A stretch of DNA of 64,000 bases. Origin: Bacteroidales bacterium. Its GTDB lineage: Bacteria > Bacteroidota > Bacteroidia > Bacteroidales > Marinilabiliaceae. Made by a program: the position numbers and the translations under genes. The stretch is from the NCBI GenBank assembly GCA_015061285.1, contig SUWW01000017.1, positions 1-64,000 of the forward strand, written 5' to 3'. Shown here one piece after another: positions 3,994 through 43,142 of this stretch. The notes under the pieces were generated by a model that was given only the letters and a program-made list of their open reading frames with translations, made no database searches and was not told the DNA's origin. Every line of letters starts with the position of its first letter. The first letter of the stretch is position 1.

Positions 3994-4194
3994 ATGGACT
4001 ACTTACCTAAAGACCCAGCCATACTTGTGTCGAGCATAAATATGCTCTTGCGCGACGATGAGTTCGATACGCTCGATGCGCTTTGCTATAATTTCAATCG
4101 TGAGCCAAGCGAATTGTGCGCCTATTTACAGGACAATGGCTACGTATACAACGCAGAACAACGGCAGTTTCGCCCAATAGGTTTCGACGCATGA
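3994..4194 (+). CDS. DUF4250 domain-containing protein
   Basis: A 66-aa protein matching DUF4250 along its length: LPKDPAILVSSINMLLRD, a central LDALCYNFN segment, and the NGYVYNAEQRQFRPIG end. The function of the family is unknown. Its stop overlaps the next start by four bases (ATGA), indicating translational coupling with the following small gene. Confidence 0.85.
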   Translation: MDYLPKDPAILVSSINMLLRDDEFDTLDALCYNFNREPSELCAYLQDNGYVYNAEQRQFRPIGFDA

Positions 4195-4445
4195 TTACGA
4201 AGGAGTGTATAGAGACTACCTATAGTTTCTTTCATCAGAAACGCCGTATCTACGAGCATTCCACGCTCGAATGGCAACGCGACGACATAGAATATGCCAT
4301 AGCATCGTATGTAGACGAAATGAACGCCGAGCTCTACCAACAACTCTCGCACGGACGTAAAGATTTTCTGAAAGACCACCAAAATTTTCTACGCGACATC
4401 ACCGAGGCAGAGGAGACCTTAGAGAAAGTGATGTTTAGCTTGTAG
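4191..4445 (+). CDS. conserved small protein; carries one arm of a 62-bp direct repeat
   Basis: 84 aa, starting at 4191 in ATGA overlap with the DUF4250 gene. The upstream reading of this frame is not needed. It is helical and charged (YSFFHQKRRIYEHS, DDIEYAIASYVDEMN), resembling a conserved Bacteroidales hypothetical family, with no assigned function. Bases 4332-4393 recur exactly at 43012-43073. Beyond that point the two copies diverge, encoding ITEAEETLEKVMFSL here and IADAEAQLEQLL at 43 kb. This looks like a gene whose original 3' end has been displaced by an insertion and replaced. Confidence 0.75.
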   Translation: MITKECIETTYSFFHQKRRIYEHSTLEWQRDDIEYAIASYVDEMNAELYQQLSHGRKDFLKDHQNFLRDITEAEETLEKVMFSL

Positions 4446-4502
4446 AAATATAGAGCGCCTAGCCTACTATAAAAATACTGTCCGTTTAACTATTGATATT
4501 CT

Positions 4503-6024
4503 ATGAATAGAACAGCTCTTGTCATCCTTTGTGTGTTACCCTTTTTCTCATTATTTGCAGAAAATAGAGTCTTATTAGACTTTACTATTACTACAAACGC
4601 CGATAGTGACAATGTCGCCAAAACAGAATGCGTGTATGATCAAAGAGGAAATCGTATTTTATCTACTGAATATAAATGGAATGAGGAGAACAATAATTGG
4701 GAAATTATAGCGAAAAATTATTTCACCTATGATGATAGTAATCATATGACTCTTGAGGCATATTACAAATGGGATTCTACGCAGGATTCTTTGGGTATTG
4801 CAAAGAGAGAATATGCCTTTGACCAAAGTGGCAATAGAACACTCTATGCAGAATATAAATGGGATAGCTCTAAACATCTATGGGGTTCGAAATCAGAAAC
4901 CGAATACGATGTAAAAGGACAAAAAACGCTTTCTGCAAATTATAAATGGGATAGTCAGTATTATTGTTGGGTAGTGACTTCGAAAAGCGAATTTGCCTAT
5001 GACGAACTAGGAAATGATACTCTTACTATACAATACGAATGGAGTCGCAAGCATAGAGCATTGTTTGGTGTATGGAAAAGAGTCTGTTCCTACGACAATA
5101 ATGGAAATAAGACACTTAATGCACGATACAAATGGAATCAAGAAAATAGCTCTTGGATAGGTGTTTATAAAACTGAAACTGCCTATAATGCTAATAATAA
5201 GGCGATAATTGAACAAAAGGTACAATTGGAATGATGATAATGATTCTTGGATTTTCTCATCAAAATTAGAAATAGGCTACAATGAACGTGGAGATGAAAC
5301 GTATTATGTAGAATTTGATTGGAATAACGAACTCAATTCTTGGATTGAAGGACAGAAACGTATATACACTTATGATAAGAGTGGTAACAAGATTATGTGC
5401 GACTGTTATAATTGGGATATGGGAAATGGTAAAGGAGAGCGCTTAAGAATTGAGTATACATACAATGATAATGGCGGAGTGACTTTTAGTGTATGCAAAA
5501 CATTTGATAGTATAAATCACGTTTGGAATGATTACTCTAAATATAAATATGAATACACCTATGATGGGAAAGGCAACCTCACTCTTCAATATGGCTATAA
5601 ATGGAATAGCGAAAACACATCTTGGATTGAAGATAGTAAATACCAATACATGTATGATGAAAGTGACAGTATAATGTTACATGTGATTTATAAATGGAAT
5701 AGTGATAACAAATCTTGGTATGGAATATCGAAAGAAGAATTTGCTTACGATGAGATGAATCGCAGAACTCTTAAGGCTAAATATAAGTGGAATGACAATG
5801 ATCGTTCATGGGTTGGACTGTACAAGTATGAGACCGCTTACGATGCAAAAGGGCGCCAAACTCTTGGTGTAAACAGTGTTGGTAGTGTGATAGATGAATC
5901 TTGGATTGGTGTGTCGAAGTGTGAAAATGCCTATGACGAGAATGATAATAAAACTCTTGATGTGACATACATTGGAAAAAATAATGTATGGCGCACATTC
6001 CATTCGTTATCGCAACGCGGTTTC
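4503..6024 (+). pseudogene. secreted WN/YD-repeat protein, frameshifted and truncated by IS30
   Basis: The gene begins with a signal peptide (MNRTALVILCVLPFFSLFAE). It continues as tandem repeats of roughly 30-40 residues with the pattern YKWN....SW.....K.E.AYD..GN.TL. The reading frame 4503-5234 stops, and the same repeat pattern resumes in another frame from about 5209. One extra base near 5213-5222 (CAAAAGGTACAA) explains the break. The second part runs to the IS30 end near 6024 and loses its natural C-terminus. A fragment of the same repeat family is at 42731-42985, beyond the element. The role is unknown; surface or periplasmic location is inferred from the signal peptide. Confidence 0.75.
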
Positions 6025-6996
6025 TGATGCAAATGTAATTGTTAATAATTGTTCTAAACAAACATTTTGTGGATTTTTATATGATAATTTTTTGCGAGGT
6101 CGATTATTTAGCTCATACACAATGCGTTGCAGTTCGTCTTGCGTAATATCATCTAATGATATTTTCTTTGGTAAATACTGCCTTATTAGTTGATTTGTTT
6201 TCTCGATAAGTCCTTTTTGCCACGATTTATATGGTTGAGTAAAGTAAATCGGGCAATGTAATCGCCGGCTTATATACCTATGTTCGGCAAATTCAACTCC
6301 GTTGTCTGTCGTGATTGAACGAATGCTGCCTTTGAAAACATCAAGTGCTTTTACGACCTCTTTTGCCAATTCGTGTGCATTGTGTCCGTATGGCAATTTT
6401 ACAGCTATGAGGAATTGAGTGGTGCGTTCCACGATCGTAAGTATTGCGCCCTTTTGCTTTGCTCCAACAATCAAATCCATTTCAAAGTTGCCGAAATATG
6501 GAGGATTGCAACTTTCGGGACGTTCAGATATATCAAGTCTGTGCGGAATGTGTTTTACTCCTGCCGTGCTTATGATAATATGCCTTCTATGCTTCAGTCC
6601 GAATCGACAATATTTGTAGAGTGAACCGCCTTGCTTTTTATCGGCTCTGATGAATTTATATATTGTCTCGGTGCAAATTTTTTCACCATCGCGACTGAGT
6701 ACATTTGCAATCTGCTCAGGTGACCAATGTTGTTTTAGTTTCTCAACTACCAATTTCCAAACATACGAAGGCTTCTGAGGGTTATGCTTCAGTATTTTTT
6801 CGCGTAGTGTTGCCGCTCGATGCGCTTTACCACAAGAGTATTTGCCATTGATAGTATTGCGCTCTATTTCACGCGATATGGTCGATTTGTGAACACCAAT
6901 AAGGTTCGCTATTTCGCTATATTTTAGTTTGTATTGTAAACATAATTGAATATTGCGTCGCTGCACAAGAGTAAGATGCTGATATTTTTTTGCCAT
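6007..6996 (-). CDS. IS30 family transposase
   Basis: The 329-aa protein has an N-terminal helix-turn-helix (YSEIANLIGVHKSTISREIER) and an rve-type catalytic core. The DDE residues are visible in FEMDLIVG, TTDNGVEF and LIEKTNQLIRQYLP. The family normally acts on its own terminal repeats. The last residues (SETALR) read through the inverted repeat into flanking DNA, so the native C-terminus probably ends near TFAS. The gene appears intact. Confidence 0.93.
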   Translation of the reverse strand: MAKKYQHLTLVQRRNIQLCLQYKLKYSEIANLIGVHKSTISREIERNTINGKYSCGKAHRAATLREKILKHNPQKPSYVWKLVVEKLKQHWSPEQIANVLSRDGEKICTETIYKFIRADKKQGGSLYKYCRFGLKHRRHIIISTAGVKHIPHRLDISERPESCNPPYFGNFEMDLIVGAKQKGAILTIVERTTQFLIAVKLPYGHNAHELAKEVVKALDVFKGSIRSITTDNGVEFAEHRYISRRLHCPIYFTQPYKSWQKGLIEKTNQLIRQYLPKKISLDDITQDELQRIVYELNNRPRKKLSYKNPQNVCLEQLLTITFASETALR

Positions 6997-31450: not shown

Positions 31451-32041
31451 TTACGCCTTGTTCGTCTTCACACCATAGAGGACGATTTTGAGAGCCTTGT
31501 TCTCTGCCGATTTAGGCAAGTAAATCCAAGGCACGATGTCGGTAAGAGGTGAGATAATTTTCGGACAATTGAGTTCGTAGAAGCCCTCGCGTTTGTCTGA
31601 GTTCTTAGGAGTGCGGAACACTTCCATAGAGTTGCGAGGAACGAGAACTTTATCGCCGACCTTCAGCTCAAACTCACCATTTGCGATAAGATTGCTGATA
31701 ACACCATACTCAGCACTATCGACAGAAAGGTCTGCACTGATAGCTTTGGTTGACTCCAACACTTGAATACCTGTTACGAGGAAGTAAGTGTTAGCTTCCA
31801 ACTGACGCTTGTTAAGGTTAGTTACACCAACTTTCTTATCGTCCGAAGATTGGAATGCTTCAATGGTGGTTGACTTTTCCAAGTTGCGAGAGCAATAAAG
31901 AGCATAGTCTACTACTTGTACACTACCACTTTTGATTGCATCTGCGAGATTTTTGTCGATTTTGCTCATACGAGCTGCAAATTCGGTAATACCGCTTGCG
32001 ATTTTTGTACCCACGAATGAGGTACGTGCTGCTTCTGCCAT
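31451..32041 (-). CDS. candidate major structural protein, 196 aa
   Basis: Residues 1-50 are helical, the rest strand-rich (ANTYFLVTGIQVLES, GEFELKVGDKVLVPRNSMEVF, PWIYLPKS..LKIVLYGVKT). The gene has its own leader with three CCTAA units (CCTAACCTAACCTAAATTTT) and is framed by strong hairpins at 32080-32108 and 31397-31440, a layout suited to high expression from a processed transcript. No known family recognised. Confidence 0.5.
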   Translation of the reverse strand: MAEAARTSFVGTKIASGITEFAARMSKIDKNLADAIKSGSVQVVDYALYCSRNLEKSTTIEAFQSSDDKKVGVTNLNKRQLEANTYFLVTGIQVLESTKAISADLSVDSAEYGVISNLIANGEFELKVGDKVLVPRNSMEVFRTPKNSDKREGFYELNCPKIISPLTDIVPWIYLPKSAENKALKIVLYGVKTNKA

Positions 32042-36568: not shown

Positions 36569-37699
36569 TCATACGTCAAGGAATTTGGTGGTTGGTTTCT
36601 CGTCAAAGCATTTGTCGAGTACAGGGTCTACAACATAGTAGCCGCGCACATTGTCGGTTGTCGGTACAATCACATAGACGTGCTGAAAACGTCCTGCCGA
36701 GTATGCCGCTATGCGGAATTTGTACGGAATATTCAGAGCTTCGAGCATAGAGCCAATGAGCGTTGCAAAGCAGTCACAATCGCCCTTTTGGTCGTAGAGC
36801 GCACGTAGCGGTCGGCGCACTTGCTCAGTAAATCGGCTGTCGAGTTCGTATTGTATGTGTGTGTAGACGAAATCAAAGATTGATTGCAGCGTAGCGGTGA
36901 GAGTGTCGCGTTGTAGCGATTGTGCCAAACGGCGAACACTCTCCACGTCCGCTGATGCGGCTTGGTGCATAATGTTTGCAGTGTCTACAACCGAGCCGTT
37001 TGCCTTCACGATATAGTCGTGGTGGCGGAGATTTGTTTTTTCGGGGATTAGTGAAATATAGTCGGAAAGAGGTCTAATTGTCCTTTTCGATGCGGCGGTA
37101 AGTCCCAAACCGCTAATGGTCACTGCGCCTGTCGTGTCAACTTGACCACTCTTACCCAAGTCGAGCATAATATCAAACGTAAAAGCATCGTTGAGTATCG
37201 CGCCAATCTTAATCTTTAGGTCTTTGGTAATGTTGTCGAAGTTGCCCTTCGTGAGCCAATCTTGTATGTTCGTGCCGAAAATCGAGAGCAATGTGCGTGT
37301 GCCTATCTGCATCTTGATGCCTTCAAGCGTAGAAACGGCGTTTGCCTTTACCACAACGCTCGAAACAGCAGGCACGCTGCTTGCAACCATCGCTTCGCCT
37401 ATGTACGCCATAACTGACTGCACGGAAATCTTCATTTCTTGCGACGAGCGGTTTGCAAAATCAACGTCGATAGGCACAACGACGTATGCGCTATCGGTCA
37501 CGTAGTTTACAACCTTCTGCAAAAACTTTCCAATCTTATTAGATGTGGTCGTTGAGCCTGCATCAAGTTTCAAACTACCTCCCAAACGTGGGGTGATAGT
37601 TAGCTTATCTATCATATTGGTCACTGATGACTTCTTACTCCACAAGTAAAGAAGTCCAAGTGCGCCACCTATAAGTCCAAATACTAAACCTTTTTTCAT
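36569..37699 (-). CDS. membrane-anchored transglutaminase-like cysteine protease
   Basis: 376 aa. The N-terminal helix (GLVFGLIGGALGLLYLW) anchors it. Residues 30-230 are a beta-rich domain of unknown type. The C-terminal domain is transglutaminase/papain-like, with Cys308 or Cys310 in KGDCDCFATLIG, His340 in RFQHVYV and Asp358 in YYVVDPV, in the usual order and spacing of the Cys-His-Asp triad. First gene of the late block, right after the decamer array. It is the only protease candidate for particle maturation here; wall remodelling is the alternative. Confidence 0.75.
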   Translation of the reverse strand: MKKGLVFGLIGGALGLLYLWSKKSSVTNMIDKLTITPRLGGSLKLDAGSTTTSNKIGKFLQKVVNYVTDSAYVVVPIDVDFANRSSQEMKISVQSVMAYIGEAMVASSVPAVSSVVVKANAVSTLEGIKMQIGTRTLLSIFGTNIQDWLTKGNFDNITKDLKIKIGAILNDAFTFDIMLDLGKSGQVDTTGAVTISGLGLTAASKRTIRPLSDYISLIPEKTNLRHHDYIVKANGSVVDTANIMHQAASADVESVRRLAQSLQRDTLTATLQSIFDFVYTHIQYELDSRFTEQVRRPLRALYDQKGDCDCFATLIGSMLEALNIPYKFRIAAYSAGRFQHVYVIVPTTDNVRGYYVVDPVLDKCFDEKPTTKFLDV

Positions 37700-37748
37700 T
37701 TGTTAGTTGCTAAGTGCATTTAAGTGCATTTCTTTTGCTTGCACGTAG

Positions 37749-37775
37749 CAAAATTACAGCGCATAAATATTCAAA
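37749..37775 (-). promoter_or_regulatory. late promoter of the structural block
   Basis: On the minus strand TAATTTTG (37756-37749) matches TAnnTTTG and TTTG occurs at 37775-37772, 15 bases upstream, slightly short of the usual 19-21. Transcription would begin about 40 bases before the protease start. Confidence 0.5.
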
Positions 37776-37860
37776 GTCGCGCTAAGTCGCTTTCAGTCAC
37801 GCTAAGTCGCGATAAATCACTTTAAGTCACGCTAAGTCACTTTCGTTATGTTAAGTACGC
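37771..37860. repeat. decamer repeat array with exact 10-bp phasing
   Basis: Nine consecutive 10-base blocks from 37771 follow the pattern NNTAAGTCRC: for example GCTAAGTCGC at 37781, 37801, GCTAAGTCAC at 37831 and TTTAAGTCAC at 37821; the last two are degenerate. One helical turn per unit puts all copies on one face of the DNA. It abuts the late promoter. A second small direct repeat (TTAAGTGCAT) lies at about 37711-37735. Likely an activator site or iteron array. Confidence 0.75.
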
Positions 37861-38035
37861 ACGAAAAGTGTTAATCAAATGTTAATTTTTCTGTTGTTTT
37901 GGATAATTATAAGCGTGTTTTTGCATTTATATGCTATGATTTTGGGGTAAAAAGCAAGAGCCGACGAATTTTACTCCATCGGCTCTCGAAAAAACACCTT
38001 TTAGTTTACATCGTTAATTGTGCCCAATAGTCGGG
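37861..38035 (-). terminator. terminator closing the early gene block, in a non-coding stretch
   Basis: GAGCCGA (37958-37964) pairs with TCGGCTC (37979-37985) and on the minus strand is followed by TTGCTTTTTAC. It ends the small early genes before the late promoter region. The rest of 37861-38035 is AT-rich without a gene. Confidence 0.6.
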
Positions 38036-39240: not shown

Positions 39241-39543
39241 TTAGATTAATTCGGGATAATTCAGACGTATATAGTCTGCCATTTCGCGCACTTTGTGAGC
39301 AAGTTTTGATGCGAGTTTTCGCACATCGTCATCGCACATAACATTAGTATGCAAACTCGTTCGTTCTAACTTGGCATCTTGAGTTGCGTTGAACTCTCTA
39401 TAAGTATGCAAGCTCGTTCGGTCTAACTTGGCACCTTGAGTTGCGTTGAACTCTCCTGCTGTCCACTCTATAATCAACCCTGTATTTGGGTCGGTCAGAG
39501 TGCATTTGCCGTAATGCTGTTCAAATAAATACTTTGCTTCCAT
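39241..39543 (-). CDS. early protein with internal 19-residue duplication, 100 aa
   Basis: EFNATQGAKLDRTSLHTY is followed at once by EFNATQDAKLERTSLHTN. At DNA level the unit is 57 bases long (39351 and 39408). The duplication looks recent because most third positions agree. Function not recognised. Confidence 0.6.
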   Translation of the reverse strand: MEAKYLFEQHYGKCTLTDPNTGLIIEWTAGEFNATQGAKLDRTSLHTYREFNATQDAKLERTSLHTNVMCDDDVRKLASKLAHKVREMADYIRLNYPELI

Positions 39544-40376: not shown

Positions 40377-41450
40377 CTACCAACCTTTGAAGTTCTTGTT
40401 TTTGTTAATCACGCCATTGTTTTGTGTCACATTATTGCGAACGTTGTTGCCATCGCCAATGAACGGATTATAGCTTTGCCACCCACTACCACTCGTTTTC
40501 TTCACGATTTTCATAGCTATTTCGGGGTCTCCACCCGATAAATGCATCAACTCATCATAGCTATCGTGCGCTTGTTTTTCTGACCGAAAAGCCTTTCCCA
40601 TATCCCTTCGGTAATCGACGTAATCCTTGAAAATTTGCGCCATATTTTCAGCAATCCATTCGGGACGCGCATCGACTTCAAAACTGAATTTTGCGCCGCC
40701 CCTTGGTTTTTTCGGTAGGTCGGGCTTAGCATCTACCGCCGTGGGCAAAGCATCATTTTCGCCATCGCCCTTTCCATCATCGATTTTTTTATTTTCAATT
40801 TCGATTTTGGTTTCGTTCAAAAATTTCCCCCTTTGGGGGATTATAGGGGGTATAATATTATTTTCTATTTCTCTTTTACTTTTATTTTGGTTATCGTTTG
40901 TTATTTTGTTATCCATAACAAAATCATTGTTGTTATCTTTTGTTATAACATCGTTTATAACAGACTCTTTTTTGTTATCGTTTGTTATCTCTTTGTTATT
41001 CGTAACAAAATCATTGTTGTTATCGGTTGCTATTTTTTTGTTATCGGAATTTTGCGTAATAGACTTTGCGCTATAATCTGTCCCCCAACGAGTTTCCATA
41101 CCTTTTTTACCTGCTATACTGCGTTTATACGATAGGTCATTTTGGCGTTCTTTGCGTTCTTCCATTCGTCGGTTGATGCTCGTAGAATAAACTATTGAGC
41201 CTTTTTCAGTCTGCTCTGTTGTGAACAGACTGAAATCGGTTATTAGTTGCGTCAATTTGTCAGCATCGGCGTGTAGCTCATCTGCTATGAGTTCTAAATC
41301 TTCGTAGGCTACTCTATTGCCGTTTTCCCACAGATATTCTGTGAACGTCCAAAACAGTCCGATACCTTCAAAGCCCATCTTATTACGTAGGCGCACAAGT
41401 TTCAAGTCGCGGTGCGCATTGTAATCGTGCGAGAAGTATTGCGTTTCCAT
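40377..41450 (-). CDS. Lin1244/DUF4373-type replication protein
   Basis: 357 aa. The N-terminus (YFSHDYNAHRDLKLVRLRNK, GFEGIGLFWTFTEYLWEN) is the winged-helix domain of Lin1244/Lin1753-like proteins found in phage and plasmid replication genes. A long low-complexity linker follows, with repeated Asn-rich units (NNNDFV, TNDNK), then a basic C-terminal domain with DnaD-like character (FKDYVDYRRDMGKAF). The linker DNA is itself repetitive around TTGTTATC. Initiation at the element origin is inferred. Confidence 0.75.
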   Translation of the reverse strand: METQYFSHDYNAHRDLKLVRLRNKMGFEGIGLFWTFTEYLWENGNRVAYEDLELIADELHADADKLTQLITDFSLFTTEQTEKGSIVYSTSINRRMEERKERQNDLSYKRSIAGKKGMETRWGTDYSAKSITQNSDNKKIATDNNNDFVTNNKEITNDNKKESVINDVITKDNNNDFVMDNKITNDNQNKSKREIENNIIPPIIPQRGKFLNETKIEIENKKIDDGKGDGENDALPTAVDAKPDLPKKPRGGAKFSFEVDARPEWIAENMAQIFKDYVDYRRDMGKAFRSEKQAHDSYDELMHLSGGDPEIAMKIVKKTSGSGWQSYNPFIGDGNNVRNNVTQNNGVINKNKNFKGW

Positions 41451-42419: not shown

Positions 42420-42744
42420 AGTGATTTATTTGTTGATTAGTGATAAACAAAATGGATATGTAAAAAAGAGAGCGGAAGCCCCACGCGCTACAAACTTCCT
42501 TACGTCCTCACGACATTGCTCCCTCAACGAAACCAGCGTGGTATGTAACTTTCTAACAAAAATCGAATGCCCGAAACAACATTTTGAGAAAAGTTGTTCG
42601 GGTGATATATATTTAGAATTAGTAGTAATAATCTGATTGGATAGCGAATTGCTATCTGTTTGATTGATTTCGCAGCTAAAAGCGTGCCAATTTGATAGAA
42701 AGTTATGTTTCATTTTTCATTTTATAGCTGTTGCGCTATAAAAT
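42420..42744. promoter_or_regulatory. control region and right end of the element
   Basis: Contains an inverted repeat CCCGAAACAAC (42570-42580) with GTTGTTCGGG (42593-42602) and, at the right edge, ATTTTATAGC and GCTATAAAAT around a 6-base centre (42719-42744). I could not see a clear TAnnTTTG promoter for the early genes. An open frame here (42426-42713) looks fortuitous. The second dyad straddles the junction with the interrupted host gene and could be a recombination site. Confidence 0.45.
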
Positions 42745-42985
42745 GGAGTGTGCCTGGATAGGATATTCTAAAGAAGAATGTGTATATGATAAAAACAATA
42801 ATAAGATTTCGGAATTGTCATACGAGTGGGACAATGAAAAACAGACATGGATTGAAGACAGAAAGAGCGTTAACTCGTACAATGAATATGGGTATATATT
42901 ATCTTCTATAAAATACAGATGGAATGCAGGAATAAGCGATTGGGAGAAAGAGCGTATCACTAAGTATGTTTATCGTAATAAATAG
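42731..42985 (+). pseudogene. 3' fragment of the interrupted WN/YD-repeat gene
   Basis: Translates to two more repeats of the pattern found at 4503-6024: CAWIGYSKEECVYDKNNNK and TWIEDRKSVNSYNEYGY, then ends KYVYRNK. There is no start or signal peptide. Its first codons follow a damaged TATAAATGG (YKW) codon run, placing the junction near 42730. With the left fragment it shows that the element entered this gene. Confidence 0.75.
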
Positions 42986-43011
42986 AAAATTGCTTTTCGA
43001 ACTCGAGAATA

Positions 43012-43116
43012 CTCTACCAACAACTCTCGCACGGACGTAAAGATTTTCTGAAAGACCACCAAAATTTTCTACGAGACATAGCCGATGCAGAAGCTCAGCT
43101 CGAACAATTGCTCTAA
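43012..43116 (+). pseudogene. displaced 3' end of the small conserved gene (direct repeat copy)
   Basis: 43012-43073 is identical to 4332-4393. The frame continues as RDIADAEAQLEQLL and stop, a plausible native C-terminus. No 5' part is present. This is the signature left when a segment inserts into the 3' part of a gene and supplies a replacement end. Confidence 0.75.
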
Positions 43117-43142
43117 AATGCAAAACACCAATCTGTCGTTGG

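Follow-up and report, generated by a model that had tools for sequence, protein, structure and literature searches.

Phased 10-bp repeats before a putative structural operon: a probable multi-site operator for a DUF4248 winged-HTH protein on Bacteroidota mobile elements

Apl of phage 186 is both a recombination directionality factor (RDF) and a transcription regulator, and acts on seven direct-repeat operators spaced 10–11 bp apart, at which single sites are weak and cooperativity is strong (PMC7498355). BldC, a MerR-like winged-HTH (wHTH) protein of Streptomyces, assembles head-to-tail on direct repeats at smeA-sffA with one subunit per helical turn (PMC5859096), and RdfS occupies DNA at about one molecule per 10 bp (PMC11963761). 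Repression is among the effects of Apl and BldC (PMC7498355, PMC5859096). The locus described here lies in a window of 64,000 nucleotides (the whole stretch analysed) from Bacteroidales contig SUWW01000017.1. As at operators of the Apl, Cox, and Xis type, its direct repeats are one helical turn apart, with an exact 10-bp period, and the window encodes a small wHTH protein, here DUF4248, of the kind represented by Xis, HTH_17, and MerR. The array is probably a multi-site operator, bound head-to-tail by the element's own wHTH protein, that switches the structural operon beside it.

The array (37771–37860) is contiguous and comprises seven good 10-bp units and two decayed ones, which bears out an earlier note describing nine 10-base blocks with decay at the distal end. 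In order towards the gene, the core units read GTGACTTAGC GTGACTTAAA GTGATTTATC GCGACTTAGC GTGACTGAAA GCGACTTAGC GCGACTTTGA. Compared with itself at a lag of 10, the array matches at 48 of 80 positions (composition shuffles: mean 19.8, sd 3.8, maximum 38, n=20,000), with further peaks at lags 20 (44/70) and 30 (40/60) and every other lag close to background; it is the top lag-10 signal within the window. In pattern and DNA searches, on which all genome-wide array counts are based, the phased pattern had no second site in the 3.55-Mb genome. The window element showed no second array, whether in front of its wHTH gene or elsewhere, and an Rfam search returned no match. Two exact decamers in the leader, on which the earlier note is silent, are possible extra operators (Table). 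Gene-internal tandem repeats also occur in the window: a 57-bp duplication at 39346–39455 and a 42-bp repeat in the Lin1244-type gene at 40890–41044.

Table. Features of the window around the array and the putative structural operon.
Feature	Position	Strand	Remarks
Conserved 196-aa protein	31451..32041	-	AF2 model pLDDT 87, weakly like jelly-roll capsid proteins
Gene 1 of the putative structural operon: N-terminal domain and transglutaminase-like cysteine protease (PF01841)	36569..37699	-	
Two exact leader decamers, TAAGTGCATT x2 (sense AATGCACTTA)	37711..37730	-	ACTTA common to decamers and array
TAATTTTG, presumed Bacteroidetes-type -7 box (TAnnTTTG)	37749..37756	-	14 bp from array
Core of the probable operator array, seven contiguous 10-bp units	37771..37840	-	Sense consensus GTGACTTARM
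Two decayed distal units, GCGTACTTAA and CATAACGAAA	37841..37860	-	
Intrinsic terminator, end of upstream leftward operon	37955..37988	-	
J-domain-like protein, 90 aa	41711..41983	-	Adjoins wHTH gene, likewise in relatives L018, L024, L028, L038, L047
DUF4248 (PF14053) winged-HTH protein, 80 aa	41959..42201	-	Proposed array-binding regulator

All genes around the array are leftward, and the array is framed by a terminator on one side and, on the other, by the -7 box of the transglutaminase/structural operon. The box, TAATTTTG, is one that we take to be of the Bacteroidetes type from the generally known consensus TAnnTTTG; no TTTG -33 box was found at the usual distance from it. The array had been said to abut a promoter element: the box is indeed nearby, although separated from the last unit by 14 bp. 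Upstream lies a small-gene and replication-type module (DnaC-like, Lin1244-type) with the terminator at its end, and since this terminator closes the upstream operon, the structural operon needs a promoter of its own. After the transglutaminase-like gene, the operon encodes conserved proteins without known function. The 196-aa protein model bears a weak fold resemblance to the FLiP penton and to NCLDV major capsid proteins; because this similarity to jelly-roll capsids is weak, "structural operon" is used here as a provisional label for an operon presumed to be capsid-like. Among the proteins scanned, no tailed-phage hallmark genes were recognised; the element is possibly a non-tailed virus not yet described, or a relative of one. 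A search with the 196-aa protein matched two replicons of Persicobacter psychrovividus and found no relatives among phage records; a relative resides on the complete 53-kb plasmid pPP10 of that species. Fragments of similar host-type genes occur on both flanks of the window element (4116–6027 and 42731–43117), which suggests insertion inside a repeated gene region, and an IS30-type transposase lies at 6007–6996.

Relatives were gathered from viral contigs and genomes as homologues of the transglutaminase gene. Their operons carry direct repeats at the same place and with the same period, and the units differ in sequence: GGGACTTAAA (L014/L084), AAAAGGTAAA (L005), GCGTCAACGT (L007), ATACTTTCTT (L115), and CAATTAACTA (L111), with an CACTAATCTC-like unit in a second element of the window's own genome. 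The number of units ranges from four to nine, and a few relatives have other periods (for example, 11 bp in L006). The exact decamer was considered as a family signature and rejected: it is the spacing, not the sequence, that relatives keep. In a near-identical element (L003/G057), in which the protease is at least 99.7% identical and the flanks are nearly so, the array is longer than that of the window by exactly one 10-bp unit, and several bases are substituted within units. Arrays close to their operon usually stop 14–24 bp short of a TAnnTTTG-like box that has a short leader; the box is perfect in the window, L090, L050, L026, L086, L081, and L108.

Under a strict test (at least 25 of 40 lag-10 matches within 250 bp of the operon start), 20 of 59 non-redundant elements carried an array, against 0.3 expected from the rate elsewhere; 15 passed at lag 20, 12 at lag 30, and 0–2 at any other lag. 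Among control regions taken upstream of other genes in these loci, two of 181 passed, compared with 20 of the 59 operon upstream regions (Fisher p 6e-12), although some of the 59 elements are closely related, so that the tests are not fully independent and p values overstate independence. The 39 elements below threshold may have short or degenerate arrays, or none. A later phylum-level search provided a held-out test, in which five of seven new loci had a strong array, one a weak array, and one none (lag-10 scores out of 40: L166 28, L167 26, L168 30, L169 37, L171 27); in L166, the array precedes genes that lead via the wHTH gene into the operon. The array is a real, conserved regulatory feature. 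The earlier note had staked its case on the array not being absent upstream of the homologous protease gene in related elements; it is present there, with its geometry conserved but its decamer changed.

Most array-bearing elements encode a wHTH protein of 60–100 aa, either DUF4248 or HTH_17/MerR-like. Among the aligned members, 22 of 26 match PF14053 at E 0.1 or better, with HTH_17 or MerR_1 matches in some relatives; DUF4248 is a separate Pfam family. It is uncommon: of 119 genomes sampled from the order, 12 have it. In the window, its gene is 4 kb upstream of the array; in many other elements, the wHTH gene adjoins the array, either divergently (L086, L087, L088, L090, L103, L105, L171) or co-directionally (L111, L116, and the DUF4248-DnaJ-operon elements L018, L024, L028, and L038, in which the repeats are weak). 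Similarity of units and similarity of wHTH sequences are only weakly correlated (Mantel rho 0.14, p 0.008, 25 elements). Of the binders that had been put forward earlier—the DUF4248, 69-aa, and Lin1244-type proteins—the DUF4248 wHTH protein alone is conserved with the arrays. In L053 and L121, the interval between a 300-aa gene and the DUF4248 (wHTH) gene contains 9- to 10-bp GTTACATTC repeats, about 500 bp upstream of the latter.

A structure search with the DUF4248 model gave no significant match (best E 1.0), and a PDB sequence search with the wHTH profile gave nothing useful. The top, non-significant fold match was CbpM, a J-domain-binding wHTH protein, to be taken as no more than a lead, and BldC (6ama) ranked tenth (E 2.1). 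CbpM binds the J-domain of CbpA; in the window, the wHTH gene is adjoined by one for a J-domain-like protein (Table).

In genome G138, a DNA search with one array found exactly three copies of an array of about 70–100 bp. Two stand directly before DUF4248 genes (C110, C115), with a -7-like box following each copy, and the third precedes the structural operon of an element that encodes DUF4248 (C136). When the C136 and C115 copies are aligned, the similarity extends over about 99 columns and is largely confined to the array. These copies are the best evidence that array and DUF4248 protein belong together, and they suggest that DUF4248 may also regulate its own gene.

It is unlikely, though the best placed of the alternatives, that the same array is bound by something else, with another small element-encoded protein or a host factor forming the row of subunits. 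Further small proteins are encoded near the window array, and several array elements have no recognised wHTH near the array (L008, L045, L104, L117, L167, L168). The G057 element also keeps its array while no DUF4248 was found in that genome, where the upstream module of the element is cut at the Lin1244 gene. However, no other small gene was found to recur with the arrays, and the G138 copies track DUF4248. A single host factor is further argued against by the two elements of the window's genome, which have different units and different DUF4248-like proteins (the Pfam match of the second is weak, E 0.058).

Binding by the wHTH protein is the reading preferred here. The DUF4248 protein would bind as a cooperative row of head-to-tail monomers, one per 10-bp unit, and form a nucleoprotein filament ending about 15 bp upstream of the -7 box, the assembly of which would switch the structural operon. 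Many imperfect units, strict phase, variable number, and sequence drift that is tolerated if neighbours cooperate would all suit such a filament. Both the binding and its cooperativity are presumed. Counting against this reading are the 4 kb between gene and array in the window, the G057 array, the weak correlation of units with wHTH sequences, the non-significant structure search, the elements below the strict threshold, and those in which no wHTH was recognised nearby. Since the -33 box is missing, activation is slightly favoured, and repression is nearly as likely. The suggestion that a protein filament or subunit row, one per helical turn, sits at the promoter holds as a reading of the array at the structural operon, without the exact repeat being kept in relatives; the narrower one of an activator array names a possible outcome, yet repression is as compatible with the anatomy.

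An improbable alternative is that the array is mainly a recombination site, that is, an excisionase (RDF) binding region with a secondary effect on the promoter. Sites of Apl and other RDFs resemble the array (PMC7498355), and the G138 DUF4248 genes are near integrases. L093 and L095 have a second 10-bp array (AAAGGTCAGG-like) next to a tyrosine integrase gene, about 3.7 kb upstream of the operon; it is possibly an excisionase site and has GGTCAG in common with short repeats at the L095 operon. The main arrays, however, stand before a -7 box and operon rather than at an attachment site. Integrases are present in L093, L095, and L175; none was seen in the element of the window.

Even less credit can be given to a partition centromere (parC/tubC-like) or to intrinsically curved DNA. 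ParR and TubR use repeated short sites, and some arrays, such as that of L005, contain phased A-tracts; the window unit has no A-tract, though, no ParM/TubZ-type partner was recognised, and the constant feature is position before a promoter. It is scarcely tenable that an initiator protein binds the repeats as replication-origin iterons. The earlier note had also proposed iterons, and the tandem direct repeats in the window adjoin a replication-type module (DnaC-like, Lin1244-type), but the array goes with the structural operon, not with a replication gene: in relatives, the genes upstream of it change completely, and L167 and L168 have only host-type genes there.

Taken across the phylum, the arrays may tentatively be viewed, at somewhat under even chances, as the mark of undescribed Bacteroidota virus-like elements whose structural operon is governed by filaments of element-encoded wHTH proteins on 10-bp operator arrays. 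Geometry would be fixed, each lineage would have its own unit and matching protein, many orthogonal pairs would result, and the J-domain partner would possibly remodel the filament (compare CbpM/CbpA). The proposal offers a testable function for DUF4248, a domain of unknown function, and points to the likely switch of mobile elements that are widespread but barely described. If the pairs are orthogonal, the system shows how the sequence of a cooperative filament operator can be replaced entirely with its geometry intact.

The binding geometry is known from phage RDF-regulators and BldC. Literature searches on DUF4248, and on repeats of this kind in Bacteroidota or phages, turned up no relevant work; in the papers searched, neither this family of regulators, nor its use at such a place, nor a fixed geometry with changing sequence appears to have been described. 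With Apl, the locus shares direct repeats one helical turn apart at promoters and a small DNA-binding protein of the element's or phage's own; Apl sites, however, are found at attP and in the interval between the early promoters pR and pL, whereas the window array stands before the structural operon, and Apl represses, whereas the array could serve activation or repression. BldC is likewise a wHTH domain of similar size on direct repeats at helical-turn spacing, but it is a chromosomal developmental regulator that uses two to four sites of 9-bp repeats with one loose consensus; the present arrays are on mobile elements, with four to nine units and a different unit per element. Filaments of RdfS, P2 Cox, and lambda Xis are also built from element-encoded wHTH oligomers at about one molecule per 10 bp (PMC11963761). 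These proteins are best known as excisionases, and RdfS has no apparent consensus, whereas the present arrays have a clear unit consensus within each element.
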